The notes under the pieces were generated by a model that was not told the DNA's origin, ran no database searches, and saw nothing but the letters and a program-made list of their open reading frames with translations. Of a stretch of 64,000 bases of DNA, positions 315-60,700 are shown in pieces. Source of the DNA: Xestospongia muta (Eukaryota; Porifera; Demospongiae; Haplosclerida; Petrosiidae); the NCBI GenBank assembly GCA_963693285.1, contig OY848917.1, positions 20,962,245 through 21,026,244 on the forward strand. Direction: 5' to 3'. The number at the start of each line of letters is the position of its first letter. Position 1 is the first letter of the stretch. Made by a program: the position numbers and the translations under genes.

Positions 315-395
315 ACACATAATGGACATGATGTGACTTTTTATATTGTTTTATAAGCAAATAATAATATTGTATACTGTTTTAACAATATTTAA

Positions 396-3459: not shown

Positions 3460-4978
3460 CTAGAAAAGTCACACCAAACAAACATATATTATCATTATGA
3501 CAGTAAACATTATATCACTAAGTCAGTCAGTAAACAAATGCCTATTGCAAGTGAATGCAGTGTTGTTCATATAAACAAGCACTCATGTGAACTAAAACTC
3601 CGCCCTATTTTAATGTCAATTTTAAAATGACACAGGTAATAATAAGACATCCATATTTAGAACTAATTTCCTCAATGGTGACAATGACTCCATAACAATG
3701 ATTCAACCTTTTATGTATATCAACCACACCCTCTCTAGTGGGAATTTGTAGTTATGTGTGAATCACAACACCTCAATGTTATCACACCCTAATGTTACCA
3801 CACCCTCCATAGTGGGAATTTGTAGTTATGTGTGAATCACAACACCTCAAAGTAAACAATTCAATGAATATTTTCAGATAATTTCAAGAATTGATGAATA
3901 TAGTTTGTCAGAGTTGAGAAGAGTCACTTATTAAAAAAGGTGTTGTATGCATGGAATGCATATAATAGGTGAGGTATTTCCTCACCTATTTAATACAATT
4001 AGTGGCTGTAGTGCTGAAGTGCATTTTAATTTTATTCATTATTTGTTCATGTGTATGTGCATGTCATACAAACACACCTCATTTTCTCTCGTGTTCATGA
4101 AGACGTCAAAGCACTTTTTTGAAAAGGCATGTAAATAATGTTTGTACTTTAAGTACTTTTGAAAGTACTTGTGCTTGTGCTTCAAGTACAAGCATTTAGT
4201 ACATGACCCCAACCCTGATTACAAGTACAAATCACATTGTCAAAAAACAAATAGTGAATCATGGCACTACATTTCTACACATAGCAATGATCAAATCATA
4301 AAATTCTTATTGTTGTACTATTAATAGGATCTGGATCTAGTTGATAAAACTCAATACTCAAGTACTAGTAATAGCAAAACTGTTAGAAGCCAATAGAAAA
4401 CACTAAATCCTGAGCTTTTTGAATGGAGTATAGGGTTCAAATTCAGTAAGTAATAGTGAAATATATACTTAATTAGGAAGCAGAATACTTGCAACAGTTG
4501 ACAGTTACATTTTGTTGTTGAAATGTCTGGTTAATTTCTATAAACTATGCCAATGGCTATTAAGAAAAAAGACAGCTTGAGTTTAACCATAGATACATTA
4601 AAAGGAGGGATTGGAAACAGAAGCTTACTCACGTGTTCATTCCCATATAATTTATATGACTGGGTGGTACACCTTTCATCTTCTCCGTGTTACGCCTCCG
4701 ATCCACTACAATCACCAGCTGTTTGTCCCTTTTTTGGAAAAATCAAAGTGAGTAGATACCTTAGAAAGACATATTTATGAAGGACATAACCTCCCTTGTG
4801 GACCTCTGACTAACTTTTGTTTTTTTGGCTGTAAATACTGAGGCTATGATGTTTTTTTACCATGTTTTGTCCCGTTTTGTCCCCATAACTATCCTCAGGA
4901 GCAACTCTGTTATTTGAAACTTTCAACTTAAATTTAGACTGAAAAGAAAAATAGACTAGTAGTATTTTTGTTATAGGT
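3460..4978. other. Noncoding stretch with a two-copy direct repeat and a small palindrome
   Basis: No convincing exon was seen on either strand. A repeat of about 55 bases (containing AGTGGGAATTTGTAGTTATG) occurs at 3723-3780 and again at 3797-3851 with few changes. An 11-bp palindrome, AATAGGTGAGG and its complement, sits at 3964-3990. Confidence 0.6.
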
Positions 4979-13480: not shown

Positions 13481-15669
13481 TAGAGATGCACCGATTATCG
13501 TTTGAATATCGATATCGGTGCTGATTTTGAAAATTTGGTTTTTATCGGAATCGGCAATAACAACAGCATATTAACTGATAATTAATTGCGCATGCGCAAT
13601 GTATCATAATTATTGTGACAATGTGACTAAAAATACATCAAAATGGAGGCTGATAAAAAGCACTCGCCAGTGTGGAAACACTTCACCATAGCTGAAGACA
13701 ATAGTTTTGCTATTTGTAAGCATTGCCAAAAAATACCTCGAGGAGGGAACTGTAAGAAATCTTATGATACGACAAATCTGGTCAACCATCTGAAAGAGCA
13801 CTGTGAATCATTCAAGATTTACAATGAAGACAAGACTACTCAAGCAAAGAAAGTAACTGATGATATACAAAGAAGGCAGACTCTGAGACAACTCTCTTTA
13901 GAAGAAGCTAATGAGAAAGTAAAGAAATGGGGCATTTATGACGCGCACTCTGAACGTCTACACCGTAAACTTGGTGAAATGGTGGCAATGGACTGCCAGC
14001 CATACTCCATTGTGGAAGACACAGGCTTCAAAGGCTTTGTGACTGCTCTAGAGCCTCGATACCACTTACCAAGAAGGAAATTTCTTGTTGAAAATATTAT
14101 TCCAAGAATTAAGACTGGTTTAGAATGTGAATTACAGGTGTGTTTAAGTGATGCGTATTGTTTCAGCTTTACCACTGATGCATGGACCACCAATATTTCA
14201 AACCATAGTTTATTGAGTTGACTGCCCATTGGCTAACAGAAAAATTTGAACGAATGTGGTGCATATTGAATGTAATTCCTTTAGAAGAATTCACACTGGA
14301 GCTTACATCTGTACAAAAATTAAGTCTTGTTTAGAAAAATGGAAAATTAAGGGAAATCAGGTTCATGTTTTTGTCCGTGATAATGGTACTAATATGGTGA
14401 AAGCCATTAATGATGCTGACTTTACTGGTCAAGAATGTTTCGCACACACTTTGCAATTGGTGGTACATGATGGGGTGTTGTCACAGTGTGCAGTATTAGA
14501 CTTACTATCTGTTTCAAGACGAATAGTTGGACACTTCAAGCATTCAACTGCTGCCTGTAGTGCCCTTTGTAAGATTCAAGAAAATCTTGGTTTACCACAT
14601 CACACTCTTAAACAGGACATTCAAACAAGGTGGAATTCAACATATTATATGTTGAATTCCATTCTTGAGCAGAAAATGGCATTGGCTGCGTATAGCACAG
14701 AGAACAGCATACCCATTTTAACTACACACCAGCTTGATTTAGCATCTAAAGTTGTCCAAGTACTAGCCCCAATAGAGGAGATAACTCAAATGATATCTGC
14801 TGAGGCTGCTTGTATTTCTATGATTATTCCTTTAGTAAGAGGGCTAATGAAGACACTTGAGAAGCATAATCAAGACAGTGGCGTGTGTACAATGAGAGCT
14901 GAAATGTTAGCATCTTTGAAGCACCATTTTGCTGATATAGAAAAAGAGGAGCATCTGGTACTTGCAACAATTCTTGATCCGTGTTACAAGAACAAGCTCA
15001 TCAATAATCAAGATGCCACCACAGAAATACTGAAAGAGAAATATCATGCACAAGTATCTGCTGCAAGTGATAAAACTGAGCAACCACCCTCACAGCAAGA
15101 AATGTCTACAAACCAAGAAAAACAGTCTGATCTGTGGGAGAGTGTTACAGAGATGCTAGAAGAATCAGGAGTTAACTTTATTGGAGAAGTAAATGAATTA
15201 TCTTGTTATTTAGATGAACCACTAATTGATGTCAGAAAAGGAAATCCCTACAAATGGTGGCACAATAACATGTCATGATATCCTATATTAGCTCACTTAG
15301 CTAGAAAGTATCTCTCTGCTCCTCCAACCAGTGTCACATCAGAGCGTCTGTTCTCAACTGCTGGTGAGATATATGAGAAGCGACAAAACAGGCTCTCTCC
15401 CGATCATGCTGATACTCTTTTGTTTATTAAGCATAATATTGAATTGTTTGGTGGACAGTACAAGTTCTGATTGATGGATGTTTTGGTATTTTCAGTTTTT
15501 TACCTTTTTGAATTTTGATGAAATTTGATAAAATAGTGAAGTGCATGAATTTGGTTGACAGTTTTTTGTAAGCATCAAAATTATCGGATCGGTTATTGGA
15601 ATTGGCAATTTTGTACCCAAAAAATCAGAAATCGGATCAATTTTAAGTTTTGTAATCGGTACAACTCTA
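13481..15669 (+). mobile_element. Complete hAT transposon, 2,189 bp, with 8-bp target duplication
   Basis: The element starts TAGAGATGCACCGATTA and ends with the near complement (TAGAGTTGTACCGATTA read from the other strand); 15 of the first 17 positions match. It is flanked on both sides by GTTCAAAT (13,473-13,480 and 15,670-15,677), the 8-bp duplication typical of hAT. GTTCAAAT is part of the minisatellite unit, so the element landed inside the array. Confidence 0.93.
13643..15470 (+). pseudogene. hAT transposase, ZBED4/6-like, nearly intact
   Basis: Frame 1 (13,643-14,221, 192 codons) holds a BED finger (SPVWKHFTIAEDNSFAICKH, then TTNLVNHLKEHC) and the start of the catalytic domain (FTTDAWTTN). 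A frame change near 14,220-14,256 leads to frame 2 (to 15,278), with VRDNGTNMVKAI, CFAHTLQLVVHDGVL and TRWNSTYYML. TGA at 15,276-15,278 interrupts the dimerisation domain. Its remainder is still open after the stop: LAHLARKYLSAPPTSVTSER, then LSPDHADTLLFIKHN, ending at about 15,470. Only one frameshift and one stop separate it from an intact transposase of usual length, so the insertion is fairly young. It would not make an active full-length protein as it stands. Confidence 0.9.
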
Positions 15670-23984: not shown

Positions 23985-24312
23985 CAGTTTGGCAAATCTC
24001 TAAAACGTCAACATCAACAGGCTCAGGGTTGAAGAAATCTACAATTACATGTATGGTAATAAAGGTACAGTAATTTTAATTTGACACACCTTTCTTTGCT
24101 TGTCTTGAAAGTGTCATCTCTAAATCATCAGCCTCAGACTCAGAGAACTCTACTACAACTAAACAATAAAGGTACAGTAATTTTTATTTGACACACCTTT
24201 CTTCTTATTCCTGGTTTGTCTTGGAAGTACCATTTCTAAATCATCAGCCTCAGACTCAAAGAACTCTCCTACTACTAAACAATAAAGGTACAGTAATTTT
24301 TATTTGACACAC
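23985..24312 (-). repeat. Three tandem copies of a small exon with tiny introns (about 107-116 bp period)
   Basis: Each unit, read on the - strand, has a pyrimidine-rich acceptor (CTTTATTGTTTAG), an acidic exon (EFFESEADDLEMVLPRQTRN and similar) and a GTGTGTC donor, leaving introns of only about 35-50 bases. The common block GGTACAGTAATTTT occurs at 24,064, 24,171 and 24,287. These units bridge the Lys-rich end of the transposase and the protease exon. The leftmost copy is more diverged. Confidence 0.75.
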
Positions 24313-26132
24313 CTTTCTTCTTATTCCTTCCACTTCTCTTTGTTTGGGACTGTTCTTTTTTGGCTTTTGCCTTTTCCTCTCTAACTCTTTTCTGCTCATC
24401 CTTTTGTAGAGTTTCCATTTCTTTCTGTCTCTGTCGTTCCCACAGAAATTGAAGATGATGACAGCTGGTAAGAACCTGCAGATTTTGTAGTGGCTTTACT
24501 TGGCAGTAAAAATGCAGGAAAAAAATTGCTGACAGTGATGCAGATCGAGTTGGTAATGAACTTTCTCCAAAAGATCTCTCGTGGAAGTCTGGATCAGACA
24601 ACGACCTTTCCAAGACCATAGATCTATCTGAACTAACAAACGTTCCATTGCCGAGGAGCTCATGATCATCCATTGACCAACGTGGAGTACTAGTAACAGC
24701 TTGACAATGGGACTTTGAACATCCAAGAGCAGGGCTATATAATGGAATATAAGCTAGGCCTGTTTTTCGAGCAAGAGCTTTGGGTTTGAATAGAGCAAAA
24801 TCTTCATTATCATTTGGCTCCAACACATGTGCTTTAGTAACTGACCGATCAAGTGGGTACACTCCAGTGACTTTAAAACTTGATACAATGTTTTCTATTG
24901 AAAAAGCCTTCAACCAAGCCTGAGAGAAAAGTCGACAAAAGTCGTACTGAGATACTGTCTTCCCAGGGTTTTTAGCAATGAATTGGTGACAAATCTGTCT
25001 CCATGATACTTTTAATGGTGCAAAGCATCTTCTGTCCAGTGGCTGCATCACATGTGTTGTATGAGGTGGGAGGGTGAAAATGATAACTTGATTTTGAGCA
25101 GCCATGTTGATAGTATCAGGACAATAATGAGTAGAGTGCCCATCCAGTAGTAGAATTACTGTACCTTTATTGTTTAATTGTAGTAGAGTTCTCCAAGTCT
25201 GAGGTTGATGATTTAGAAATGGCACTTCCAAGATAAAGCAGCAATATGAACTTGTGGGGCATATAATAGGAAATGCTTTGTGAACCAATGGAAAAATAGA
25301 TCCCTTGACATCCACCCACTATCAGACAGGCCATAGAGTGTTCCAGGGATTTCTCCTTTAGTTAAGTCCTGACTTAAAGATTTTCTGTTAAAAATGATGA
25401 AGGGAGGTATAACGTAACCAGCTGCACACGAGCAAGCCAAAACAGTTATTTGTGCTTTAGTATTTCCAGTTATGTGGCTAGGATTTCTAGAACCAATCTT
25501 GTCCACTATCTTCAAACATTTTGGGCTAAGTGGAAGCAAAGTTTCGTCACAGTTGAAAATGCGAGAAGGATCATCAAGTATGCCATTGGTTTCTAGAGTT
25601 TCTTCAAGCATATCAAAGTAACGATTGAGTACACCTGGATTGGTTGCAATTGCCCTTCCATAAGATAACGGTACAGCCATCTTCAGAGTTAATTTGGGAT
25701 GCCTTCCCAGAAATCTCTCCCACCATCCATTTGATAGTGTTGTTTCAATTCCCTTTCCCTCAACAATTCTTTGAACTAAAGCCAGTACTTGTTTCTTGGC
25801 ATGTGGGTACCCAATCTTAGCAGTTTGGATTAAAAACTCACTAATTCCTCTTCTTCTTCAAAACTTAAATAAGGGGTTGGACCTGATCTTGCCTTACAAT
25901 CAACTTTGCCACTCACTCTATCATGGAGTGAAGATTTTGGGACTGAAAAGATTTCACAAGCTTGTCTAATTCCCAACTCGACTTCCTTAACTGCTTTTTC
26001 CATACTCTCGCTGTTCCATCTCCTGTATGTAGTACCACGCCATGGCAAAGAGCAGGATGAGGTTTCATTATTCGAAGTACATCTATGCACGGCTTTCACG
26101 ACTCTTCTTGAAATGGGTGGGTGAGAATACAT
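24313..26132 (-). pseudogene. pogo/Tigger transposase (HTH, CENPB-type, DDE) with frameshift and insertion
   Basis: The N-terminal helix-turn-helix is TYRRWNSESMEKAVKEVELG, then ACEIFSVPKSSLHDRVSGK. A one-base change in a T run near 25,835 shifts the frame just before IQTAKIGYPHAKKQVL (CENPB-type domain). The DDE core follows: IFNCDETLLPLSP with the first Asp, VILLLDGHSTHYC with the second, and THVMQPLDRRCFAPLKVSW with the third, then AWLKAFSIENIVSSFKVTGV as in all pogo proteins. Between the first and second Asp a piece of about 80-90 bp (25,155-25,233) breaks the frame. The C-terminus is rich in Lys/Glu (KMETLQ-type coil, then RSGRNKKK) and ends at a GTGTGTC donor at 24,313. The start may lie upstream in the right terminal repeat. 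Confidence 0.9.
25155..25233 (+). repeat. Opposite-orientation copy of the small-exon unit inside the DDE domain
   Basis: The + strand here matches the - strand of the tandem units at 23,985-24,312 at roughly 90 percent over about 79 bases. The shared core includes the acceptor, TAGTAGAGTTCTCC, and GATGATTTAGAAATGGCACT. It separates the first and second catalytic Asp of the transposase. Confidence 0.8.
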
Positions 26133-28289: not shown

Positions 28290-28548
28290 CTCCTTTTATG
28301 AGATACTGTCTAATATCAGTAGCCAATGACTTCTTTTGAAGAGGTCCTTCTATAATAGTAGTAGTTTGGGTTGATTCGTTATTGAGCCAATTCTGAAGTG
28401 TTTGACAACTTTACTTCATTCGGTAAATTTGTATCAAGCAAGCCATCAAGAGTATTATCATCAACTGCAAGTAGGCCACCAATCACATACCATTTAGAAG
28501 AAAGTGATGATAGAAACTCTAGCAAAACATGTTTCTGTGGTTCCAAAT
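28290..28548 (-). pseudogene. Degenerate Death domain exon
   Basis: Between a GTCACAG acceptor and a GTACAG donor, the - strand encodes LLEFLSSLSSKWYVIGGLLA, then VDDNTLDGLLDTNLPNEVKL, and after a one-base frame change TLQNWLNNESTQTTTIIEGP, ending SLATDIRQYLIKG. It parallels the intact Death domain at 35,783-36,090 (ADISDQWYVIGKALRVSNDV), helix by helix. The frameshift lies at about 28,410. It sits just outside the left end of the MULE, while the intact Death domain sits just outside the right end. Confidence 0.75.
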
Positions 28549-28850
28549 CTGTGACAAAGTATAGAATATACTATATCATGTGTTTGATATTTACTTCTTC
28601 CTTTCTTTCTTTCCTTAGATTGATTTTGCTTTCTTTGGTGATAAGTTATTAGTATTAGTAATAAATACATTGACATGCTCACAGATACAAAGATCAAAAA
28701 AATAGCTTAGTCAGTGAAACAAGCTAGGATCATTGAGATAATAAACGACTTTACCAGATTATTGACATATTTAAGTTATTACATCCAAGACAATTGCAGT
28801 TAAATCTAACAAGTGGTCATTTTGCAGTATACACTCCTCCCTCAAAGCGG

Positions 28851-28882
28851 CTAGTCACAGGAACGAAGCCACTTAATATTCA
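28851..28882 (+). repeat. Left terminal inverted repeat of the MULE
   Basis: It pairs with 35,590-35,620 over about 31 bases with about five differences. The best-matched block is AAGCCACTTAATATTCA. Confidence 0.7.
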
Positions 28883-29056
28883 TAAGATTCATTGATTATT
28901 TTGGTCGATCACGTGAACACTACTGTCGTCATATGAACGTTCAGAATAATCTGCATGTGTTGCTTTATATTATAATAATGGAGTAATGAAATAGTACTCA
29001 AGGTAAGATAGTCTGTTAATGAAGGTATTGTTGGTTGAGTATAGATTGTGTTAGAC

Positions 29057-32000
29057 TTATGATGTGTTTTGTCTTGTCTTCTTAGATGTTAAGCACATGT
29101 TACAATAAAAGTCAGTGCTGGGAGGATATTTGATGTTAACACAGGTCCTATTGAACGTAAGTGAAATTATTGTAATTGTATATTTGGAACAAAGATTATT
29201 GAAAGCCAAAATATGTTTAATCTATAAATTCTTTGGGTTGGTAAACATACCAGTGATACCACTCTTCACACACATCACATTGTATCATATTCATTGTTGT
29301 AGAAACATTGTTGCATAATTTACAGGCCCATTCACATTTCTTTTTGTTTACTATATCAAAAACATGTAAAAGAATTCTTTACATTGGATATTTTGATATA
29401 CCTCTTTGTAGTAATTCATACCAGGCATGATCAGTGAAAAAATGCTTCACATCATTAATGGAGTTGTCAACAATTTCATCTGGTAATGACGTTAAAAGAC
29501 CATTTGTTGTAATTAGTTGTCCATGTTTTGACAAGGTTTCGATACTTCTCTGATTGACAGTCATGGCTAGAATTTCTATGGCACAAGAATTATATATAGT
29601 TAGTAACAAATTCATTGTTCATTGTTCATAATATCTACTATTGTCCTCATGCAATAGCTTTTCATTATTTACAATTTTAATCTCATTATCACATGTAAAA
29701 AATTATGTGTATACAGTGTTTATTGATAATAAACTATCAACTATGTACGTTGCTACTTACCTATAACTGAGTTAGGTAAATTGAGTGATTGGAGTTTTGA
29801 TAGAAGTGACTGTTTTAGCTCATGTTTTTGTTTGTCGGTTGGTTTAGCTATTTTTGTCGATGGAGTTTTACGATGTTTTCGAGTTGAAAAGAATGGTTTT
29901 TGTGGCGATAGTGCTTTGTTTGCTGGTTCATTTGATAACCTGTTAAATCTAGATGATGGTTCTATTATATTGATTTCAACAAGATTTAACGCTGCTCTTA
30001 TGTTCTTTCTTACATGTTGCATGATATCTTCATCTGTACATTGATCTAACAAGGCATATAGATGATCCATATCTCTCTGTATGTCTTCTTACATGTCAGC
30101 TGTTGTGGTATATTCCCCTAAGACTTTTACTTCATGAAATATTTCCTTATTCCCAACATTGAGTGACTTCATAGGGACATTTGATGGTTCTGCTGTAATA
30201 CGATTGAAGTTAGAGTTGATATACCTAATAACAAGGTGAATGTGTTTACACATTGTTACATTGAGAAGAGAGTCAGGACATGTACATGTATACTCATGTA
30301 TACAAATGTTGCATTCCTTGCATCGTATATGGCAATTTTGACAAATTGTTTGTTGTTTCTTGATAGTGTAGTGGGTTTCAGGTTTTGATGTAGAAGTAAC
30401 TGTCCATTCATTACAGTTAGTGTCTCTTACAGCTTCTATTGAAAGCTTTATACTATGTACATGTCTGCTGTTAATAATACCTATTCGATAAGATGTCTTC
30501 CCCTTCTCTAATTTTATTAGTCTTTCAAAAGCTTTGTCTTTTGCTATCTTCATGAGGATATGAATACATTTATCAACACGTCGATTGATTTTACCTTTCA
30601 TGTACAAATATTTTAGTGTGTGGTGGAATGCTTCAACATACATATTGGTGTTGATACCAGCTGTTCTTCGGTAACATGTAGCCCACTGATGTTTACGTTG
30701 ACTGTACTCTTGCTTGAAGTACTTAGCGAAACGTTGTGTACTCTGGTTATTGTCAATAAGTGTCATAAACTTGTTGAAAAGTAGTTCAAACTTGTTGTCA
30801 TCTTCTTCATCAAGTAGTGTGTGGAGAGTATGGTAGATTTGACACTTCTGCTCTTTGTCACTGATAAATTTCAAGGCACTTCTCCAGGCACGATCTACAT
30901 GCCATGAACATAGGATTTTTTGTGGATGTCTATTGAATACTGATATCCATGCATTATAGAACCCATCAAAGTCATCAGACATAAACCATTCCGGTGATAT
31001 TCTTCCAGTCTTTTTCTTAAGGTGTTCAAAGTAATGTGTCAGTAGTATCTGATCCTCTCTGTTACTTAGGCACCATGAAACTGGATAGCCCTCACCATAT
31101 TCATCAACAATCATCACTGTGGTCAACTGAAAGTCGTATCCAGTTGTCTTGTGTGTTGAGTCTACACAAATGATGTTGTTTCCAAATTCTTTCATCATTG
31201 CACACTGCAATGGTGCCTGAAGAATTAGTACAAAGTCATCGTTGTCTAAGTACTGACAGTCAGTCGTTGCTTTATTTCCTTGTGGTTTGTATAGAAGTAC
31301 TGGATTATCAACACCCTTTTGTCTCATTTCTTCCACCCATAGTGCTACACTCATTGAGTCATTAGAATGACGTTCCACTCCCTTGAGACCATATGCTTTT
31401 TCTATGTTGACTATGTCCTTCCTCGTTAGTAAATGTATTCTGTCAATTTTAGTTGAGACACTGTCTCTGATGCCATCTAAAATTCTGTCAATAGGAATAC
31501 CTTTAGATAATTGACCAGCAATTTCAACACGTTTTGATTGTGATATTTGTAAGTGTCCAAGTTGTTTGTCATGATCATAGTGTGTGTCACATAGTTCTAC
31601 TCTAATTAATTCCATGTGCTTGTCACTTGTAACAGTTAAAGTTGCTGTGCAATGAGCATTTATCTTGTTTGATCCTTGTGACTTCAGACTTCTCGCACCA
31701 GTTGTTTCACTAACAAAAAATCCACTCCTGCTACAATAGAAGTAAATTGTCTCCTTATCCATTGTCTCCTTCTTCCCTGTAGCTCTTACGTAACATGAGT
31801 CTGTTGCTACTTCCAGTTCCTCTTTCCACCGTGAAAACTCTATAGAAGGTATGGTTTAGTGCAATGAAAGAAATGTTATAGTGGTATTGTATTAAACACA
31901 GAGCGAAGTGTCCTTTATCACATGCAACTGTTAAAGATTTATTACAAGTAATTAATCTTATTTAGCAATAGTGATGTATATTACCAATACTGCAGTACAT

Positions 32001-32567
32001 GTATAAAAATTGTATAATTATTCATAACAAACCTTGCATTGTTGAGAAATGTAATGTTTCTGTTTTGATATTGAAGTTGTGATGATCGTTAAGATGTTGT
32101 CTTAGTTGTTTGATGTAACGGCAGCTGAAGGTACATTCCTTTTCCTTGCACTTGATGGTATTTATTTCATTACCATCTTGGTTGTGTGTTTTTTTAATAT
32201 GCTTGTGAAGGCTTTGTTTGTGTTGGTATTGTTTCTTGCATTTAGGGCAAATGTTAATGTGAGGCAGTGATGATTTAGGAAGAGGAGATTTATTCTCTTT
32301 TCCTGATTTATTGGTAGAACTTGATTTAAGAGAAGACAATGTAATTTTATTGTTACTTCTATCTGTTAAAGTATTAGGGAGTTGTGACTGCTCATTAGAT
32401 AAAGATTGCAGTAGTGAACCATGAGTTGGATGTGCCTGTGATGGTTGTTTTGATGTTTGAAAGTTTGATTTCTTTCCTTTTAAGTCTGATGATTTAGATG
32501 ACATTGATGATGATATTGGTGCTACAGATTTTGCCTTTTCCATTGCTGCATTCCTATTGGAGTTCAC
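29057..32567 (-). CDS. MULE transposase with C2H2 fingers, SWIM finger and PHD finger; one in-frame TAA
   Basis: Five exons splice in phase: 32,033-32,567, 29,761-31,839, 29,402-29,575, 29,251-29,350 and 29,057-29,147, about 990 codons. The N-terminus is Ser/Lys-rich with two C2H2 fingers (ICPKCKKQYQHKQSLHKHIK and then CTFSCRYIKQLRQHLNDHH). The MULE DDE core shows NNIICVDSTHKTTGYDFQL (first Asp), WFMSDDFDGFYNAW (second), and CSWHVDRAWRSAL. The SWIM finger is YTCTCPDSLLNVTMCKHIHL. After TAA at 30,089-30,091 the same frame stays open for more than 100 codons. It then splices to a PHD finger split over two exons (WACKLCNN, IQCDVCEEWYHW, then TCVNIKYPPSTDFYCNMC). Without the stop the protein would be whole, so the stop is recent, a polymorphism, or read through. 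The likely role is cut-and-paste transposition in the nucleus. Confidence 0.88.
30089..30091 (-). other. In-frame TAA within the MULE transposase
   Basis: The codon lies between TTTADM and EDIQRDMDHL, in the same frame as the long downstream open stretch and upstream of the PHD exons. It would remove the C-terminal 250 or so residues, including the PHD finger, but leaves the catalytic and SWIM parts. Confidence 0.85.
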
Positions 32568-32642
32568 ACATAATGGTATAATAGTGTGATATTGGGCAAA
32601 TTATTACATCAGCTGTATTATATTGTATACTGTATACAAAAC

Positions 32643-35479
32643 TCACAATAACTTTGAGTTATGTAGTTCATGTAAAATTTCGTATCTAAATCTAGATATG
32701 TCCTCCTATTGTGTTGTAATGATAATCAACACCTTTACTTTTTAATACCTGCTGAAAGGAAGGCTTTACTTCACTTAAAATATATAGCGCCATCTAGTTA
32801 AGTGTTTGAAATAACTATAAAATGATTCACTATAGTCACCTTTATAGCAAAGACTCCGCAGTCAGAACCATTCTTTTGAACTGGAGCATTCTATACGTTT
32901 ACCAATATCTCATTATTATTAATGACTGCTTACCCAGTGTAAATCTACCTTCCAATTAGTCCATTGAAATGACTCACTTTTCTCTAAAATGTATCGTTGA
33001 CTTATGAATTGACTATAAGTACAATATTTAGGAATAATGGTTAGTTATGGGTTACTTGGTGCCACACTAACATGATTTTCTTAAGATAGGAAAACCCAGA
33101 TAATGGATTAAATGAGTCAGTATAGTGGAGTGTCTTGGATTGAAAATCAACAACCTAGAGTGTAAGGCATTTGAAACACCTTGACTGATATTTTGTTTGG
33201 ATAATTGTAATAATAATTATTATCAATAACAATAATAACTTTACATAACAATACTTACCATCATGGTCCAATGAGCCATTAGGTGTATAGGTACTACCCA
33301 GTAATGGTAGTCTTCAAGCATTCGTAACTATGAGCACATGTATACTAAGTCTGACAGAAAGCAAGTCAAATATGATTGTACCTTCTTGTAATTGTTTTGA
33401 ACAACATGATCAATGCCATGTTGTGAAATTAGTTGAAAGAAATATGATGTCAGAGGCAAAACATGACAACCCTACAATAACATATACCAATTTGTTCTTG
33501 TGAGCACATGTTTACCTTCATCTGCTGCACTTCATTTGCAATGAGAATGACATAACTGTTAATGACCTAATCATATTTACATGTGATTTTGATCTGACTG
33601 TGAGTGTTCACACCTTGTCATTGAGCCAGGAAGATGAATCATGTGTTTCTTCATGAACTTGTTTCAGACACTGTAACTGTTTACCAGTGATTGATACTGT
33701 TATGTGAAATGGCTGACTAATACATTCCCAATTGACTGTACACATTGTGTCATTTGATTGCATTTCATCATAGTATTGTTTGAGATCTATATAGGACAAG
33801 ATTATTTATTTAATGCATTGTAACTGACATTCGTATACCATCCATTGTTGGTAGTTTAGTTAATGTACCACATACATGTACTGATTGATGACAGAGCCCT
33901 TGTTTGCTTTTATTTTCTTGCTTTAGCTCTTGTGCACGTAGTAATGTGGCAAGCTTGCTTCTCTCTTTGATAAGTGTTTCATCTCTGGTTGATAATTGTT
34001 CTAGAAGTTTGTCAAATAGCTGTTTTTGAACATTAATAATTTCAGGAGACAGTGTTAGTGAACTCTAAAAATCACAAGAAGTAATAAGGTGTATAATATG
34101 TGTAAACTAGGTTAATGTGGTTGAAATTATGTGGCATTTAAGTGCTTGGGTTGGAAGGTGGTTTCACCATCTATTCAGGTTACCTTAACACTTTTCTTTT
34201 GATATATCAGTATATAAGCCTGCTTTTGTAAGATCTCATCAAGATCCATGTGGTATACCTTGAAGTAATTATATTTTATTATCATCACTTGTATAGCTTA
34301 CCAAGGAGACATCCATTTTGTACCACCTTTTGTTGTTTAATATGTAGGAAACATAATGACCTTGTGTACAAGATGGTCCAATGTGCTCTATCATTGCCAC
34401 CAGGTCAAACATAACTGTAGCTCCCTAAATTGTACATGTTATGATAACTTGTAATTTTGCTTTAAGCACCTGTGCATCACAAAGATGTAATTCTTCAGAA
34501 AATGGTACTAGTGATGTATATTTTTGTGCTTGGCCATTCTTCCAAAAGAATCTATATATGTAATTTGTTCTTCATATATTTATTGTCAAACAATGACAAG
34601 AGTATACCTTTGTAATTGAAGTATCAAAATTGATGGCAGTGAATGCAGATCTTGTTTTCCTGTTGTTTGAGTTTGTTTGTCACATCTATTGTTGGTAATG
34701 GAACTAATTATATTGGACTAATTGAAAATGCATTCATCACCTCAGACATATTACCCCCTCTTTTTCAGATAACATCACTTTTTGGAATGAATTTTTGATT
34801 GCTTTTTCTATGTTAGCTCCCTGGATGATATGTCCACTGTATTATCAACATATTAATAGTACTGTTTATGTCATACCTGTACAGCTACTTGTAGATTTGA
34901 TTGGTTGTTTTCAGAAGATCTGGACAATCCACATTTTAGACATTCAACTGTATTATGTTAAATATACATTTTTATGTATGTATATGTTCTTACTAGTAGT
35001 AGTTATTGTAGTTTCAGTTAATTTGTGCACACTGGTGTCACTTATATGATTAAATTAATATATCAAAAGCACTAATATTGACTATAACTACCTCTCTTCG
35101 ATTTGAAGAAGAACTTGAGTAAGAAACTCATGGGCATCTTCCTGATCACCTGGAGACCAGTGTGGAATGAATTCTATAAAATATGTAATTTGTTTCATAT
35201 TAGTTTTTGTCCATTACTGTTCATGTGATTGTAGATCTCTGTTGGCTGTATCACCTTAGCCCCTTCCTGCATGCAGAGATTCTTCAATCTTTTTATCAAG
35301 CATATACAGCATAATGTAGCTAAGAGTACATTTATATCATTATTATATTGATAATAACAATTCTTACTGCATTCTTTATGTTTATTTATATATTCTTGTA
35401 GAAGAGGAATATGAAGGATTGCCTGAAGAGTTGCATTTGCAAAACAAGTATTTCCTAAGGGGAGACTTGAGTCCATCAC
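32643..35479 (-). CDS. Fusion of ubiquitin-specific protease (USP) and ULP1/SENP SUMO protease, transposon-borne
   Basis: About 20 short exons give roughly 550 residues. The USP part starts at 35,479. LPLGNTCFANATLQAILHIP holds the catalytic Cys, then WSPGDQEDAHEFLTQVLL, a zinc-type pair (ECLKCG), LPSILILQLQRFFW, GPSCTQGHYVSYILNN with the catalytic His, RWYKMDVSLV with the Asp, and DEILQKQAYILIY, the usual USP end. Exon 33,896-34,064 is a coiled coil (QKQLFDKLLEQLSTRDETLI). The ULP1 part follows: SSWLNDKVINSYVILI, VVPIHLMAHWTMMV (His), LHYTDSFNPL (Asp), NAPVQKNGSDCGVFAIK (Gln, Cys) and DISRFRYEILHELHNSKLL, with stop at 32,643-32,645. Most junctions are GT/AG and in phase. The weak points are a G run at 34,755-34,759 that may be one base too long, the donor near 33,096, and the coiled-coil donor near 33,895. 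It removes ubiquitin and SUMO in principle. It lies just upstream of the transposase on the same strand. Confidence 0.88.
32840..32890 (-). other. ULP1 catalytic Cys exon
   Basis: This 51-base exon encodes NAPVQKNGSDCGVFAIK, the Gln-x6-Asp-Cys-Gly signature of C48 proteases, between a CGTATAG acceptor and a GTGACT donor. The flanking exons 32,934-32,983 and 32,749-32,793 join it in phase. Confidence 0.88.
35368..35479 (-). other. USP catalytic Cys exon
   Basis: The exon carries GNTCFANATLQ, the USP Cys box, and ends at a GTAAGA donor. The intron to the next exon is only 48 bases. Whether the protein begins here (in-frame ATG before DSSLPLGN) or a further exon precedes the TCTCCCCTTAG acceptor-like site is open. 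Confidence 0.75.
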
Positions 35480-35589
35480 AGCTCTCAGTAATCCAAACTG
35501 AGCACGGTATTATGTGCATTGTGTTTTATTACTTGTTTATTATTCATTGAAAATGTCAAATAATAATAAATAAAAGACCACGCCCATTG

Positions 35590-35620
35590 TGAATATTAAG
35601 TGGCTTGTTCCTCCGGCTAG
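35590..35620 (-). repeat. Right terminal inverted repeat of the MULE
   Basis: TGAATATTAAGTGGCTTGTT and the following CCTCCGGCTAG mirror the left end at 28,851-28,882. Confidence 0.7.
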
Positions 35621-35652
35621 GAGCAGTCATCTTTCAATATACACTCCTCCCT

Positions 35653-35782: not shown

Positions 35783-36090
35783 TTATTGACGTCTGAGGAG
35801 ACCTAGATGGTCACGTATTTCATTAGCTTTTGCTAAGTTATCAACGATCTTTCCCTCAAGAGTAGAGATCATTGTCTTCCAGGTAACAGGCGATGGTTGA
35901 GAAGTCAACCAGGTGTTGATTACCTGAATGAGTTTAAATTTATTATCTTCTGGACTCTTTTGTAAACCATTCAAAACATCGTTGGAAACTCTTAAAGCCT
36001 TGCCAATGACATACCACTGGTCGCTGATATCAGCTAATAACTCGAGTAGATTGTGTTCATCAGGGGTAGCATTTAAAATATCTGGAGAAC
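35783..36090 (-). other. Terminal Death domain exon of the ROCO gene
   Basis: About 101 residues run from the TTATGCAG acceptor to TAA. Six-helix Death-fold features are visible: DEHNLLELLADISDQWYVIG, NTWLTSQPSPVTWKTMIS and NLAKANEIRDHLGLL. It is 130 bp from the flanking repeat of the MULE. Confidence 0.85.
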
Positions 36091-39000
36091 CTGCATAAAA
36101 AAATAAAAATTTAAACACAGTAGCTAGAAGTCATTGTAATATTAGTATTTTTTGTTTTTACACATACTATATCCATTAGCTTGTATAGCTAGCTTATAAT
36201 CTTAAATAAGCTGACATTTAAAAGTACATGTAATAACAAAGAAAATCCTGTGTAAGTTTTATATAATTGTTTATGATACTTTAATGTATGCATATATAAA
36301 TTTAATAATATATTACACATGTATAGATGGTTTAACAAGTAAGACTGATGTATACTATCTTATCTAAACTTTCAGACACTAATAAGAGATATTATTTAAT
36401 AAAAGAAGGAACCACTAACACTATACACAAACCTTTAAAAAGGAGTTTCTCAGATATCCTTTCAATATCGTGCTCATTTAATGAAGGATAAGCAAGATCC
36501 TATAACAGAATATGCTATAAATACGATGCAGTACAAAATGCATTGTAAGTAAGATCCAGTACAGAATGTGGCATAAGTATTGTGCTATACAGAATGTGGT
36601 ATAAATATGATCCAGTACAAAATGTGGTAAATTATGATGCAGTACAAAATGTATGACACATGACATTACATTTATTGTATGATCAAACTAACATATACTT
36701 ACCAAAGGATTACGTCCAGCAAACACACTAAGTTGACTGCAACGTTCCTTTACTGACATGTGACTTGATGATAAGAGAGATGATGGGAAGTAAGAACATT
36801 TATTTACTATGTGTTGAAGGTGGTCTTCTCTAAGCGAGAATTCATCACTGAAAAGTGCTTTTGTGACTGAAGGAGCAATGCAAAGAAAAGGATCATGAGC
36901 TCCCACAATCTCATCAACACCCACCCTCTTGGTGTCGCTGTCATCTCTAACAATACCTTTTGTAAGGACTGATCGAGCAACGTTTTTTATATTATAAAGT
37001 GTGCGTTTGTCCATGATAAGACTACGAGCTTTTCCTACTTCGCTAGGAGCAATGAGGTACTCCTCACATTTAAATGAGTGCATCTTACTTTTTAACTCTA
37101 ATATGGTCTGAACAACGTCATTGAAAACTTTGTGGCTGTTTTCAATGTCATTCACTGATGTAATTACTGTAACACAACGATAGTGCTCTGTTACTTCGAC
37201 AATAACTTCAACTTCATCATCATTCTCCCAATAAATACCATTTGTCCATACATCACATCGACGAGCTAACATTAGGATTTGTGGATCATCAGCAAGTTTT
37301 CCAGCTTTATAATGACGTGGAAGACAAAAAATGTAGGAAAGGCTAAAAAGGAGAAGATGAAGAAATCGTGTTGAGAGGAATTGGTTGGGATCAGGACACC
37401 AGAGGCACCATCCCAACCCATTTTCTATTTTAATATCTTTGGGGGGTGTACCATGAATGAGAGATGGAAAAAACAACAGCTCATCTGATGGCAGAGGAAT
37501 TGAAGCTGATATATTGGTTTTGAACATTTGTAGCGTATTAGATTCTAAAACATGACAGAACTGAAGACTTTTAAGGAATCCAATTAACATATGAATATCA
37601 TGCTTTGGAAATAATCTTTCCAGAACAGATGTAGGCACAATGCCAGTATTACTAGCAATATCTCGATGGGCATGTTTAATTTCTTTTGGAGCAAAAAGGA
37701 CACCATTAACTTCAACAAGAAGAGCAGCTCTGTCGATAACTACCCAACTTTGAGCATCATCCTCATTTTTAAGAAATAAGATGAGACCTTTGTCACTTAA
37801 AGTGGTTAGAAATTCCAATAAGACTGATTTTTCTGAAGGAAGTGAAGGCTCATCACGCTCTCTTAATTTGATACATAGATTCTTTAGGCTAATAGCTACA
37901 ATATTCTCTTTGCTTCGAAGCAATTGCAAAAATGAGAATTTAACGTGGCAATAGAAACTAATTTTATCAGATCGATCAAGTATAGCTTTGCAGCTATAAG
38001 AAAGCATAGCAACAAACTCCTTGACACCTTTTCCTCCAGGACGATGACATTCCATAGGTAGGAACCCAACATATTCTTGTGAATGATCAGCTTTTTCAGC
38101 AACTTCAGCAACTACTTTTGAAATTTCCTCATAACCACCAGTCATCTCATCAAGTCGACTTCCAATAACAAGTATTTGAGATGGCCTTGAGCTGGATAAT
38201 TGAAGACTGACATTCTTTATAAAATTAAACCAGTAATATAAATCATACTTAATCATGCAGAGATCATCAGTCATCTTAGAAAGTATGGCAAAAACAGCAG
38301 GTGTGTTTAGCATGAGATTTTCAAGAATTGCTGCATGACTACTGTAATATTCCTTATGCCCTGCAAGATCATAAAGGACAATGTTTCCCACTTCGTGACT
38401 TGAAAAGGTATGTGCATTAATCCCAGTAGTAAGTAAATCTACTGGAATAGGATCAGATGTGTCAAACACATAGTTAGGCGGTTTCTTAGCTCGTTCCATA
38501 ATGACTGCTGCAAGTGAACTTTTACCTGCACCAGTGTTACCACAAAAAAAGACTTTGCTGTAAGATTCTACAGGAAAGTCTTTTCGACATTGTTCAAATG
38601 GCTCAAACATCTTTAAAATACTGAAGCGAGTTTCGTTGTCACGATAAACAAGTTCCATCGCTGTTTGATCATGTTGGTTCTTAGCCATTGGGTTGACCTT
38701 TCCTGATGACAAAAGGGATTTCACAACATCACCATAACAACCCTTGCAAGCAGCATGAAGGGGTGTATTACCAAACTAAAAAATAAAATGTATTTCCAGT
38801 AAACTGTAGTAATTGACATTCTATTTATTTCAGATCAAACATGACAATTAGAATACTTCATTTATACCTAAATTTGAAAGAATTTTGTATGTATTTTAAT
38901 TATTATGTCACAAACCAACATTAATATTTTTGTACTAATTAAAACATTGGTAGAATATTTCTAAAGAAATGAGAATTACATATTTTGAAAAGGCTCAACT

Positions 39001-54739: not shown

Positions 54740-57700
54740 CTTACACTCACAGTTAGGGTTAATCAAATTCATTGGCAACTATAAGAATATGTAATTAAAG
54801 GATGCAGTTCATTGTCATTTCTTTGCTCTTAAAAACTGCATACAATGATATAATAAAATTACAAAGGTGGATACACCAATCCAAAATAATATAAGTAGAG
54901 CCTGACAAGCTTCCCATGCAAGGCATCAAAAATCATAAACATTATTACAAACAATAGGGTAAATAAAACAACATTCAATTAAAAACACTTAGAATTCATA
55001 CTACATTATATCACACTTACTTGCTATTATGTTGTAAACAACACATTCAGATGACAAGTAATCACACCAACATAAATTTAAAAAACAAAACAATAAAGTA
55101 AACAAAATCACAACAACACATTCAATATACTTTGAATTCATACCACATTATATCAAAATTACATCCTATTATATTGTAAAGAACACATTTAGATCACAAG
55201 TAATAACAGCAAACATAAATGTGCAAACAAAAACCAATACTGTAAACAAAATCACAACAACACATTCAGTATGCTCAAAATGCATACTAAGTTATAGCTA
55301 AAAAATGCTCAAAATATACCTAAAAAGAAACCTAGCAAGAAGCTTCAACTCTTATTATTGATAGATATCGAATGTTATAGCAATCACAGTTAGGGTAATG
55401 AAATCCATTGTTGATACATAAATTGGCAGTTACAGGATCCATTCACTTTAATCTCATTTCTTGCTCTCATAGGTTGCATATAACAATATAATAAATAAAA
55501 TTGCAAAAATGGATACACATAGATACCACACAATCTAAAACAATCATAGTACAGCCTGACAAGCTCACCATGCAAGACATTGCAAACCATTAACATTTAT
55601 ATAAACAAAAGGTAAATAAAACAACAACATTCAATTCAAAAGACTTAGAATTCATACTAAATTATATCACACTTACCTTCTATTATATTGTAAACAACAC
55701 ATTCAAATGACAAGTAATCACACCAACATAAATTTAAAAAACAAAACAATAAAGTAAACAAAATCACAACAATACATTCAATATACTTTGAATTCATACT
55801 ACATTATATCAAAATTACATCCTATTATATTGTAAAGAACACATTTAGATGACAAGTAATAACAGCAAACATAAATGTGTAAACAAAAAGCAATACTGTA
55901 AACAAAATCACAACAACACATTCAGTATGCTCAAAATGCATACTAGGTTATAGCTATAAAATGCTCAAAATATACATAAAAAGAAACCTAGCAAGAAGCT
56001 TCAACTCTTATTATTGATAAATATCGAATGTTATAACAATCACATTTAGGGTTACGAAATCCATTGCTGATACAGAAATTGACAGTTACAGGATCCATTC
56101 ACTTTAATCTCATTTCTTGCTCTCATAAGTTGCATATAACAATATAATAAATAAAATTCCAAAAATGGATACACATAGATACCACACAATCTAAAACAAT
56201 CATAGTATAGCCTGACAAGCTTCCCATGCATGACATTGTAAACAATTAACGTTTATGTTATACAAACAAAAGGTAAATAAAACAACAACATTCAATTCAA
56301 AAGACTTAGAATTCATACTAAATTATATCACACTTACCAACTATTATATTGTAAACAACACATTCAGATGACAAGTAATCACACCAACATAAATTTAAAA
56401 AACAAAACAATAAAGTAAATAAAATCACAATAACACATTCAATATACTTTGAATTCATACTACATTATATCAAAATTACATTCTATTATATTGTAAAGAA
56501 CACATTTAGATGACAAATAATAACAGCAAACATAAATGTGCAAACAAAAACCAATACTGTAAACAAAATCACAACAACACATTCAGTATGCTCAAAATGC
56601 ATACTAAGTTATAGCTACAAAATGCTCAAAATATACATAAAAAGAAACCTAGCAAGAAGCTTCAACTCTTATTATTGATAGATATCGAATGTTATACCAA
56701 TCACAGTTAGGGTAATGAAATCCATTGTTGATACAGAAATTGGCAGTTACAGGATCCACTCACTTTACTCTCATTTCTTGCTCACATAGGTTGCATATAA
56801 CAACATAATAAATAAAATTGCAAAAATGGATACACATAGATACCACACAATCTAAAACAATCATAGTACAGCCTGACAAGCTCACCATGCAAGACATTGC
56901 AAACCATTAACATTTATACAAACAAAAGGTAAATAAAACAACAACATTCAATTCAAAAGACTTAGAATTCATACTAAATTATATCACACTTACCCGCTAT
57001 TATATTGTAAACAACACATTCAGATGACAAGTAATCACACCAACATAAATTTAAAAAACAAAACAATAAAGTAAACAAAATCACAACAATACATTCAATA
57101 TACTGTGAATTCATACTACATTATATCAAAATTACATCCTATTATATTGTAAAGAACACATTTAGATGACAAGTAATAACAGCAAACATAAATGTGTAAA
57201 CAAAAAGCAATACTGTAAACAAAATCACAACAACACATTCAGTATGCTCAAAATGCATACTAAGTTATAGCTATAAAATGCTCAAAATATACATAAAAAG
57301 AAACCTAGCATAAAGCTTCAACTCTTATTATTGATAGATATCGAATGTTATACCAATCACAGTTAGGGTTACGAAATCCATTGCTGATACAGAAATTGAC
57401 AGTTACAGGATCCATTCACTTTAATCTCATTTCTTGCTCTCATAAGTTGCATATAACAATATAATAAATAAAATTCCAAAAATGGATACACATAGATACC
57501 ACACAATCTAAAACAATCATAGTACAGCCTGACAAGCTTCCCATGCATGACATTGTAAACAATTAACGTTTATATTATACAAACAAAAGGTAAATAAAAC
57601 AACAACATTCAATTCAAAAGACTTAGAATTCATACTACATTATATCACACTTACCAACTATTATATTGTAAACAACACATTCAGATGACAAGTAATCACA

Positions 57701-60700
57701 CCAACATAAATTTAAAAAACAAAACAATAAAGTAAACAAAATCACAACAACACATTCAATATACTTTGAATTCATACTACATTATATCAAAATTACATCC
57801 TATTATATTGTAAAGAACACATTTAGATGACAAGTAATAACAGCAAACATAAATGTGCAAACAAAAACCAATACTGTAAACAAAATCACAACAACACATT
57901 CAGTATGCTCAAAATGCATACTAAGTTATAGCTATAAAATGCTCAAAATATACCTAAAAAGAAACCTAGCAAGAAGCTTCAACTCTTATTATTGATAGAT
58001 ATCGAATGTTATAACAATCACAGTTAGGGTTACAAAATCCATTGCTGATACAGAAATCAACAGTTACAGGATCCATTCACTTTAATCTCATTTTTTGCTC
58101 GCATAGGTTGCATATCACAAAATAATAAATAAAATTCCAAAAATGGATACACATAGATACCACACAATCTAAAACAATCATAGTACAGTCTGACAAGCTT
58201 CCCATGCAAGACATTGTAAACAATTAACGTTTATACAAACAATAGGGTAAATAAAATAACAACATTCAATTTAAAACTCTTAGAATTCATACTACATTAT
58301 ATCACACTTACCTCCTATTATATTGTAAACAACACATTCAGATGACAAGTAATCACACCAACATAAATTTAAAAAACAAAACAATAAAGTAAACAAAATC
58401 ACAACAACACATTCAATATACTTTGAATTCATACTACATTATATCAAAATTACATCCTATTATATTATAAAGAACACATTTAGATCACAAGTAATAACAG
58501 CAAACATAAATGTGCAAACAAAAACCAATACTGTAAACAAAATCACAACAACACATTCAGTATGCTCAAAATGCATACTAAGTTATAGCTACAAAATGCT
58601 CAAAATATACATAAAAAGAAACCTAGCAAGAAGCTTCAACTCTTATTATTGATAGATATCGAATGTTATACCAATTACAGTTAGGGTTACGAAATCCATT
58701 GCTGATACAGAAATTGACAGTTACAGGATCCATTCACTTTAATCTCATTTTTTGCTCGCATAGGTTGCATATAACAATATAATAAATAAAATTCCAAAAA
58801 TGGATACACATTGATACCACACAATCTCAAACAATCATAGTACAGCCTGACAAGCTTCCCATGCATGACATTGTAAACAATTAATGTTTATACAAACAAT
58901 AGGGTAAATAAAATAACAACATTCAATTTAAAACTCTTAGAATTCATACTACATTATATCACACTTACCAACTATTATATTGTAAACAACACATTCAGAT
59001 GACAAGTAATCACACCAACATAAATTTAAAAAACAAAACAATAAAGTAAACAAAATCACAACAACACATTCAATATACTTTGAATTCATACTACATTATA
59101 TCAAAATTACATCCTATTATATTATAAAGAACACATTTAGATGACAAGTAATAACAGCAAACATAAATGTGCAAACAAAAAGCAATACTGTAAACAAAAT
59201 CACAACAACACATTCAGTATGTTCAAAATGCATACTAGGCTATAGCTATAAAATGCTCAAAATATACATAAAAAGAAACCTAGCAAGAAGCTTCAACTCT
59301 TATTATTGATAGATATCGAATGTTATATCAATCACAGTTAGAGTTACGAAATCCATTGCTGATACAGAATTGAAAGTTACAGGATCCATTCACTTTAATC
59401 TCATTTCTTGCTCTCATAAGTTGCATATAACAATATAATAAATAAAATTCCAAAAATGGATACACATAGATACGACACAATCTCAAACAATTATAGTACA
59501 GCCTGACAAGCTTCCCATGCAAGACATTGTAAACAATTAACGTTTATACAAACAATAGGGTAAATAAAATAACAACATTCAATTTAAAACTCTTAGAATT
59601 CATACTACATTATATCACACTTACCTCCTATTATATTGTAAACAACACATTCAGATGACAAGTAATCACACCAACATAAATTTAAAAAACAAAACAATAA
59701 AGTAAACAAAATCACAACAATACATTCAATATACTTTGAATTCATACTACATTATATCAAAATTACATCTTATTATTTTGTAAAGAACACATTTAGATGA
59801 CAAATAATAACAGCAAACATAAATGTGTAAACAAAAACCAATACTGTAAACAAAATCACAACAACACATTCAGTATGCTCAAAATGCATACTAGGCTATA
59901 GCTATAAAATGCTCAAAATATACATAAAAAGAAACCTAGCAAGAAGCTTCAACTCTTATTATTGATAGATATCGAATGTTATACCAATCACAGTTAGGGT
60001 TACGAAATCCATTGCTGATACAGAATTGGCAGTTACAAGATCCATTCACTTTAACCTCATTTCTTGCTCTCATAGGTTGCATATAACAACATAATAAATA
60101 AAATTGCAAAAATGGATACACATAGATACCACACAATCTAAAACAATTATAGTACAGCCTGACAAGCTTCCCATGCAAAACATTGCAAACCATTAACATT
60201 TATACAAACAAAAGGTAAATAAAACAACAACATTCAATTCAAAAGACTTAGAATTCATACTACATTATATCACACTTACCCGCTATTATATTGTAAACAA
60301 CACATTCAGATGACAAGTAATCACACCAACATAAATTTAAAAAGCAAAACAATAAAGTAAACAAAATCACAACAATACATTCAATATACTTTGAATTCAT
60401 ACTACATTATATCAAAATTACATTCTATTATATTGTAAAGAACACATTTAGATGACAAATAATAACAGCAAACATAAATGTGCAAACAAAAACCAATACT
60501 GTAAACAAAATCACAACAACACATTCAGTATGCTCAAAATGCATACTAGGCTATAGCTATAAAATGCTCAAAATATACATTAAAAGAAACCTAGCAAGAA
60601 GCTTCAACTCTTATTATTGATAGATATCGAATGTTATACCAATCACAGTTAGGGTTACGAAATCCATTGCTGATACAGAATTGACAGTTACAGGATCCAT

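Follow-up and report, generated by a model that had tools for sequence, protein, structure and literature searches.

A predicted gene joining ubiquitin-specific protease and SUMO protease domains in Mutator-like elements of the sponge Xestospongia muta

A Mutator-like element with two genes on one strand

We analyzed a 64,000-nucleotide stretch of the Xestospongia muta genome (GCA_963693285.1, contig OY848917.1, here C1:20,962,245-21,026,244; hereafter the window) and searched the same genome (158 Mb, 28 contigs) for related copies. The window contains a Mutator-like element (MULE), a transposing unit with two minus-strand genes. One encodes a MULE transposase; the other is a spliced gene predicted to join a ubiquitin-specific protease (USP, peptidase C19) domain to a ULP1/SENP (peptidase C48) domain. 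An initial annotation made from the window alone had placed inverted ends around these two same-strand genes, and this layout is borne out by the ends, the Pfam matches and the gene models. The same annotation set the limits of the element at 28,851 and 35,620; the element itself stands, while aligned copies move the exact limits to those listed first below.

28,843-35,628 (no strand assigned): whole MULE, family A, 6,786 bp; homology with copies L041, L046, L047 and L043 ceases at these limits
35,587-35,628 (minus): inverted end beside the protease gene, GACTGCTCCTAGCCGGAGGAACAAGCCACTTAATATTCAC, from end comparison and aligned copies
28,843-28,885 (plus): inverted end beside the transposase gene, CAAAGCGGCTAGTCACAGGAACGAAGCCACTTAATATTCAT, from end comparison and aligned copies
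28,819-28,842 (minus): first copy of a 24-bp imperfect direct repeat, abutting the element on the outside
35,629-35,652 (minus): second copy of the 24-bp repeat, abutting the element on the outside
35,476-32,643 (minus): fused USP-ULP1 gene, 19 modelled exons, 614 amino acids plus stop
32,543-29,057 (minus): transposase gene, five exons (32543-32033, 31839-29761, 29575-29402, 29350-29251, 29147-29057)

The inverted arms are about 40 bp long and imperfect, with a 20-nucleotide core that is 95% complementary; terminal inverted repeats across MULEs span 14-500 bp (PMC6446971; this and the other articles cited are represented here by excerpts, to which statements about them are limited). The terminal motif TAGCCGCTT was found again at the ends of a second element family, that of L048, described below. 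Exact 9-bp target duplications flank three of the five family A copies whose flanks were compared (L043, AATAAACAG; L046, ATGCTTCTG; L047, CTCTCTCTG), in line with the duplication of about 9 bp that characterizes MULEs; of the remaining two, L041 has 6 bp duplicated and the window copy none. The two copies of the 24-bp repeat beside the window element differ at three places, and their 18-bp core (up to three mismatches) occurs nowhere else in the window. A 24-bp target duplication was considered for this copy and rejected, given that three sibling copies show 9 bp and that the flanks mismatch at three places.

Domain architecture of the fused protease gene

All gene models are predictions from the sequence, based on open reading frames, GT-AG splice sites, homology, and intron positions that are conserved. 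For the protease, exons joined by hand gave an open frame of 579 amino acids, to which comparison with L048 added exons 18 and 19. The 18 introns of the resulting model are all GT-AG and short, and the first stop is the last codon. A frameshifted C-terminus, considered for this protein, was rejected when exons 18 and 19 restored the open frame. A spliced-alignment script fed the first 579 residues returned identical first 17 exons, which serves as a control on the script rather than as independent proof. The span proposed initially, 35,479-32,643, is correct at its 3' limit, and the model begins at 35,476.

35476-35218, 35173-35092, 35040-34994, 34947-34877, 34820-34755, 34717-34608, 34551-34470 (minus): exons 1-7
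34424-34302, 34258-34184, 34064-33839, 33786-33614, 33566-33516, 33471-33382 (minus): exons 8-13
33327-33259, 33154-33072, 33012-32934, 32890-32840, 32793-32749, 32705-32643 (minus): exons 14-19
34,202-35,458 (minus): USP (peptidase C19) domain, amino acids 7-299, Pfam UCH E 3.6e-42
35446-35444, 34358-34356, 34313-34311 (minus): USP catalytic residues C11, H262 and D277
33,629-34,201 (minus): linker between USP and ULP1, open frame; exon 10 (34064-33839) includes a stretch that resembles a coiled coil, by eye only
32,670-33,628 (minus): ULP1/SENP (peptidase C48) domain, amino acids 434-606, Pfam C48 E 4.2e-15
33273-33271, 33118-33116, 32878-32876, 32860-32858 (minus): ULP1 catalytic residues H504, D521, Q567 and C573

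In a Pfam search of the 579-residue part, the UCH match spans 293 residues and is complete (profile positions 6-254 of 254), and the Peptidase_C48 match covers residues 434-579 (E 4.2e-15). By sequence, the nearest solved structure to the USP half is USP36 (E 5e-27), and the nearest to the ULP1 half are SENP1 (E 2e-19) and then SENP2. Each half has the residues that define its class, Cys, His and Asp in the UCH domain and His, Asp, Gln and Cys in the C48 domain, so that all seven catalytic residues are present in the window copy. The initial description of a USP with Cys and His boxes joined to a ULP1 in one spliced gene thus agrees with UCH and C48 matches in a single frame, and the catalytic residues that it called near-intact form complete sets. 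Two details fared less well. The ULP1 motif read as Q-x6-DCGVF has the spacing Q-x4-DCGVF, and for the coiled coil proposed between the domains, the linker is indeed open, with the coiled-coil-like stretch in exon 10 recognized by eye only.

The transposase gene

The transposase gene lies downstream on the same strand. Its core matches the MULE/MudrA-type transposase profile PF10551 at 46 bits, against a cut-off of 27.6, and Pfam reported no integrase family in this protein. A SWIM-like motif (CTC...CKH) follows the core by eye, where Pfam gave a ZSWIM RNaseH-like match and no SWIM domain. The PHD finger and the in-frame TAA listed below had gone unmentioned in the initial annotation.

30,896-31,174 (minus): MULE (DDE) transposase domain, Pfam PF10551 E 6.4e-12, amino acids 228-320 of the open reading frame
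32,033-32,543 (minus): transposase exon 1; two C2H2-like zinc fingers were recognized by eye, and the Pfam zf-C2H2 match (E 0.033) falls short of the cut-off
29,057-29,350 (minus): PHD finger split across the last two transposase exons, Pfam PF00628 E 6.3e-9, 3' of an in-frame TAA

Viral contigs and prokaryote genome contigs yielded no relatives of the transposase when searched with a two-sequence transposase alignment and two peptide patterns each.

Recurrence of the two-gene set in diverged MULE families

Beyond family A, a MULE match on C6 with a long open frame (L048) carries, in order on one strand, a USP, a ULP1 and a transposase with zinc-finger-like, MULE and PHD parts. The L048 transposase is 48% identical to that of the window over 548 amino acids, and its model is open, with a PHD match at E 1e-8. 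Its fused gene was modelled with 20 exons (19 introns) as an open frame of 572 amino acids in which both catalytic sets are complete. At identities of 37.7% for the USP (106/281) and 37.6% for the ULP1 (88/234), 15 of the 18 window introns lie at an identical position and phase in the L048 gene. Around the linker exon, the phases of both introns are kept, with one position exactly aligned and the other displaced in the gapped linker. The first ~60 residues of the L048 model are uncertain because its exon 2 departs from the pattern in L057 and L058, which are older copies of the L048 family.

The C6 and C11 copies of the L048 family are 9.8 kb long, 99.4% identical over 9,782 columns, and have common termini that resemble those of the window element. 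Both are flanked by a target duplication, AAGTACTCA at C6 (nine of nine bases) and eight of nine bases at C11. An element with both genes therefore moved recently. In both copies, a degenerate MULE of ~3.3 kb is nested between the left end and the USP gene (L055, L051 and L048 taken together, C6:5,992,300 onward, joined coordinates 128-3476). It lies on the opposite strand, has 46-bp inverted ends (97.8%), and carries C2H2- and CXXC-like zinc-finger stretches recognized by eye.

Two further transposases have the same upstream neighbors. That of L050 is 46% identical to the window transposase and 44% to that of L048, and that of L056 is 59% identical to that of L050 over 219 amino acids. Spliced alignment of the window and L048 proteins to the DNA upstream gave scores of 167 and 168 in sense versus 61 and 55 in antisense orientation for L050, and 132 and 140 versus 53 and 51 for L056. 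A hand-assembled L050 protein matched Pfam C48 at E 8e-20 and UCH, in three stretches, at E 6e-16. In both, one uninterrupted frame runs from the final motif of the USP (DPFMLFY) to the opening motif of the ULP1 (YLTDEV), a distance of 49 codons in L050 and 45 in L056. Judged from these gene models, the USP-ULP1 fusion is real, and no fewer than four diverged families of MULEs in the X. muta genome have the predicted two-gene set. Because the arrangement returns in element families that differ greatly, the fused gene probably does work for these elements rather than being present by accident.

The arrangement was also evident when the 150 MULE matches and 132 USP matches listed were crossed. 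Of the MULE matches, 15 (three of them from the window family) have a same-strand USP match at most 7 kb upstream, versus none downstream on the same strand, none upstream on the opposite strand and none downstream on the opposite strand. The lists cover 150 scored MULE candidates out of 258 and 149 scored UCH candidates out of 219. The count of 15, which concerns the USP only, is a lower bound in that L050, which has an upstream USP, falls among the 135 listed matches with none in range. Most MULEs in the genome are accordingly not shown to carry the fused gene. A genome search with Pfam C48 returned three places, none in these elements, and such a search overlooks genes whose coding sequence is divided among short exons, the fused gene of the window among them.

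Family A copies and mobility

DNA matches in the genome numbered at least 52 to the transposase and at least 57 to the protease region, counted as pieces. Stretches of both protease halves are kept at no fewer than 12 places including the window, several of which are mutual duplicates. The search for copies with the same ends and both genes, which the initial annotation had proposed, succeeded in that two copies cover the full length of the window element, L041 at 98.2% identity and L046 at 98.0%. Among the copies with 9-bp duplications, L043 has an internal deletion in the transposase and L047 a larger internal deletion. Copies containing both genes have moved as units. L041 and L046 (C1, ~11.20 and ~11.26 Mb) are nearly identical and lie ~50 kb apart, with matching flanks and an element orientation that is opposite relative to those flanks, as would follow from a rearranged duplication or from inversion between the ends.

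As counter-evidence, the initial annotation had named MULE copies that lack the protease gene and end between the two genes. Copies without the protease on C4 were considered as separate protease-less elements and rejected. L045, the only one fetched whole, has the 3' end, and it looks 5'-truncated because it starts inside transposase exon 1, with no 5' end in the 2,880 bp upstream. It belongs to a cluster of 5'-truncated family A copies at C4 3.41-5.33 Mb (L006-L011, L014, L045), several with an insert of ~550 bp in the transposase, which are probably segmental copies. A second architecture was considered for five loci (L012, L013, L015, L037, L038) with a common internal deletion joining element position ~1430 to ~4530; these were instead classed as deletion derivatives. 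The common deletion suggests that trans-acting help allowed a derivative to spread or to be duplicated.

Selection on the protease and transposase genes

Family A copies were aligned for the protease gene (15 rows) and the transposase (11 rows), duplicates were grouped, and codons were retained only if free of gaps and readable in at least four rows. Differences were split into those shared by at least two groups and those found in one group, and the ratio of non-synonymous to synonymous differences was expressed relative to the neutral expectation. For shared and unshared differences, respectively, this ratio was 0.69 and 1.30 in the USP, 0.49 and 1.35 in the ULP1, 0.38 and 1.49 in transposase exon 1, 0.48 and 1.13 in exon 2, 0.48 and 1.03 in the tail with the PHD finger, and 1.62 and 1.33 in the linker. 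Across USP and ULP1 together, shared differences comprised 26 synonymous and 53 others, versus 59 and 260 among the unshared (one-sided Fisher p 0.005, as for all p values here). Taken singly, the contrast gave p 0.027 for the ULP1, p 0.022 for transposase exon 1 and p 0.0002 for exon 2.

This contrast, along with the catalytic sets kept across diverged families, supports the earlier suggestion that both protease activities may have been under selection. The stronger evidence for selection is the retention of both predicted domains, with complete catalytic sets, across these families.

Neighboring features in the window

A gene with ankyrin and Roc-like GTPase parts flanks the element on both sides (36,688-38,775, 35,783-36,130 and 28,379-28,570). 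Its Pfam matches are Ank at E 6e-6 and Roc at 1e-3, the latter below cut-off, and death-domain-like stretches were seen by eye at its C-terminal end. Two further open frames resemble transposases by eye, of the hAT type at 14,250-15,278 (plus) and of the pogo/Tc-type DDE class at 24,275-25,318 (minus). A satellite of ~9 kb (54,987-63,835) consists of 142-bp units (~81% alike) within a higher-order repeat of ~656 bp and has a GC skew of about -0.33, a strong strand asymmetry.

Proposed role of the fused protease

SUMO-targeted ubiquitin ligases ubiquitinate SUMO-marked DNA-bound proteins, which leads to their extraction or degradation. SUMO and then ubiquitin are used in series for the removal of DNA-bound proteins (PMC8441304, PMC11402782). 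We tentatively favor, at somewhat short of an even chance, the reading that the element is helped to move by its own fused protein, which would act in trans by removing SUMO and ubiquitin from DNA-bound proteins. The most likely step would be removal of both marks from proteins bound to the element DNA. Erasing both would undo the extraction signal, such that the transposase-DNA complex stays in place until the jump is finished, and the PHD finger of the transposase may help hold this complex on chromatin. The serial use of both marks on DNA-bound proteins by SUMO-targeted ubiquitin ligases is the reason for favoring the transposase-DNA complex as the target. We infer that the fused protein would then be an active dual protease serving transposition. 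A broader claim, to which we lean with less assurance, is that an animal MULE lineage encodes a one-polypeptide eraser of SUMO and ubiquitin that reverses SUMO-targeted ubiquitination of either the transposase-DNA complex or the silencing machinery. It would be the first known natural deubiquitinase-SUMO protease fusion serving a mobile element.

Several observations weigh against an active dual protease that serves transposition. No substrate is named by the sequence features. USP36, the solved structure nearest to the USP half, also processes Fubi, so this half may have a substrate other than ubiquitin. The window protease lacks five residues kept by other copies just N-terminal to the Cys box (LPLGNTC versus LPSGLTNLGNTC), and its second zinc-binding pair is only partial by eye compared with L048; for these two reasons, the USP of the window copy may be impaired. 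The USP Cys box is also altered in L050 (SANNCYASS) and L056 (ASNCYASS), with the cysteine kept. Projection of family A copies onto the protease gene showed most to be broken by frameshifts or stops, the window copy having the most intact frame of those examined. The window transposase itself is interrupted by the TAA at 30,091-30,089; at this site, ten other aligned rows have AAA (four), TAA (three, all C5 copies) or a 3-nucleotide gap (three), and exon 2 is frameshifted at other positions in L041 and L046. In the selection analysis, the contrast between shared and unshared differences gave p 0.054 for the USP alone and p 0.19 for the tail with the PHD finger, and the linker showed no constraint in shared differences (p 0.73). 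Shared differences include stops (four in the USP, two in the ULP1 and three in transposase exon 2) and are therefore partly decay. The ratio of non-synonymous to synonymous substitution rates (dN/dS) between copies, which the initial annotation had proposed for both protease halves, could be computed, with moderate and scattered values. In pairs with the window copy, dN/dS was 0.40-0.92 for the USP (14 pairs), 0.35-0.98 for the ULP1 (12) and 0.41-1.55 for the linker (14); ten other pairs gave 0.56-1.12 and 0.38-1.43 for the USP and ULP1.

Other roles would fit the same architecture. Nearly as likely as action on the transposase-DNA complex is anti-silencing, in which the main targets stripped of SUMO and ubiquitin by the fused protease would be silencing factors or the chromatin of element copies. 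It would then be a possible animal counterpart of plant VANC/KIU proteins, which lift silencing from the elements that encode them. PHD fingers often read histone tails, and the transposase has one; USP36, the nearest Protein Data Bank structure to the USP half, is a nuclear enzyme. By analogy, in plants the VANC genes of KIU MULEs, which carry a ULP1, cause related elements to become hypomethylated (PMC13317346). Against this role, Pfam recognized no DNA- or chromatin-binding domain in the protease beyond the two catalytic domains. It is rather improbable that the gene acts instead on other ubiquitin-like proteins or a precursor (e.g., Fubi, NEDD8 or its own polyprotein), which would make "ubiquitin plus SUMO" a misnomer. 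C48 enzymes do include a NEDD8 protease, and the ULP1 half is nonetheless nearest, among solved structures, to SENP1 and SENP2, both SUMO proteases. For the USP half, USP36, which also processes Fubi, and USP16 cross-react with Fubi (PMC10611586).

Explanations that deny the gene any role, or the fusion itself, fit the data poorly. MULEs capture host gene fragments (PMC6446971), and an intron-rich gene is what would be expected of a captured host gene, so the protease could be passive cargo, a chance fusion in the host taken up in Pack-MULE style and useless to the element. We consider this very unlikely. The gene keeps the same place and order in four families whose transposases are 42-59% identical, two of these families have every catalytic residue and 15 of 18 introns in common, and shared differences are depleted in amino-acid changes; a Pack-MULE insert is a captured piece of a host gene that has no coding role for the element itself and is unconserved between families, whereas the present element is of the autonomous type and its protease is conserved across families. 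Even less credible is the reading of the protease as a host gene that plays no part in transposition and either was domesticated from an unrelated transposon or was hit by one. Its appeal is that the window copy has the most intact protease frame in family A while its transposase has a stop, but the ends bracket both genes, and two-gene copies elsewhere have 9-bp target duplications. The least plausible alternative makes USP and ULP1 two neighboring genes, as an ATG near the start of the ULP1 part in both the window and L048 might suggest. The frame stays open through all 18 introns of the window model and all 19 of the L048 model, the linker intron phases are kept, and L050 and L056 carry both domain edges in one open frame; separate genes are strongly disfavored. 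The separation of USP and ULP1 exons that the initial annotation had named as its own counter-evidence was thus not encountered.

Comparison with known systems

ULP1-bearing MULEs have been on record since the 2000s, in animals as well as plants, and we know of no clear function for their ULP1. That one gene combines a USP with a ULP1, and does so in four or more diverged families, narrows the question and implies that this function must need, or profit from, having both modifiers off at the same place. The pairing points to pathways that use SUMO and ubiquitin together on DNA-bound proteins. If both halves are active, the protein would be a natural single-chain dual isopeptidase and a possible tool for mixed SUMO-ubiquitin chains. 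An earlier proposal held that ubiquitin or SUMO removal aids transposition (PMC2836005), and the fused gene makes it directly testable.

Among the nearest relatives by arrangement, Kaonashi-type MULEs (KIU; plant VANDAL elements with VANC) likewise have a ULP1 domain in a second gene beside the MULE transposase (PMC13317346), as the Pfam C48 match in a separate upstream gene has it here. The KIU elements are plant and lack terminal inverted repeats, with no USP mentioned in the excerpt, whereas the present element has inverted ends and a USP fused ahead of the ULP1; it is therefore not a VANDAL-type element, VANC having been compared by description only. Animal MuDR-type MULEs with Ulp1 (Hydra and lancelet, Repbase) share ULP1 and PHD fingers with the present element and are set apart, again by description, in that the excerpt mentions only Ulp1 (and PHD) and not USP (PMC2836005). 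Ginger1, also from animals, encodes ULP1 or OTU cysteine proteases with PHD fingers, but it has a Gypsy-integrase-like transposase in place of a MULE transposase and carries OTU or Ulp1 "but not both" (PMC2836005). A peptidase C19 domain is joined to a transposon gene in the Trichomonas IS5-like transposase XP_001314237.1, which is of the Transposase_11 class and has no ULP1, in contrast to the MULE with ULP1 described here (PMC2836005). The host proteins USP36, SENP1 and SENP2, while nearest by sequence among solved structures, are products of separate host genes, neither fused nor mobile.

The initial annotation regarded a USP joined to a ULP1 in one transposon gene as undescribed, and consistent with this, no such fusion was found in the open-access PMC full-text literature, to the extent of the excerpts retrieved and with Repbase outside the scope. 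The terms ULP, peptidase and ubiquitin have no occurrence in the available main text of the MULE survey PMC6446971, nor do six such protease-type terms in that of the arthropod MULE survey PMC13359780. Relative to these systems, the parts are known, and their fusion as a pair in one mobile gene kept across element families appears to be new.

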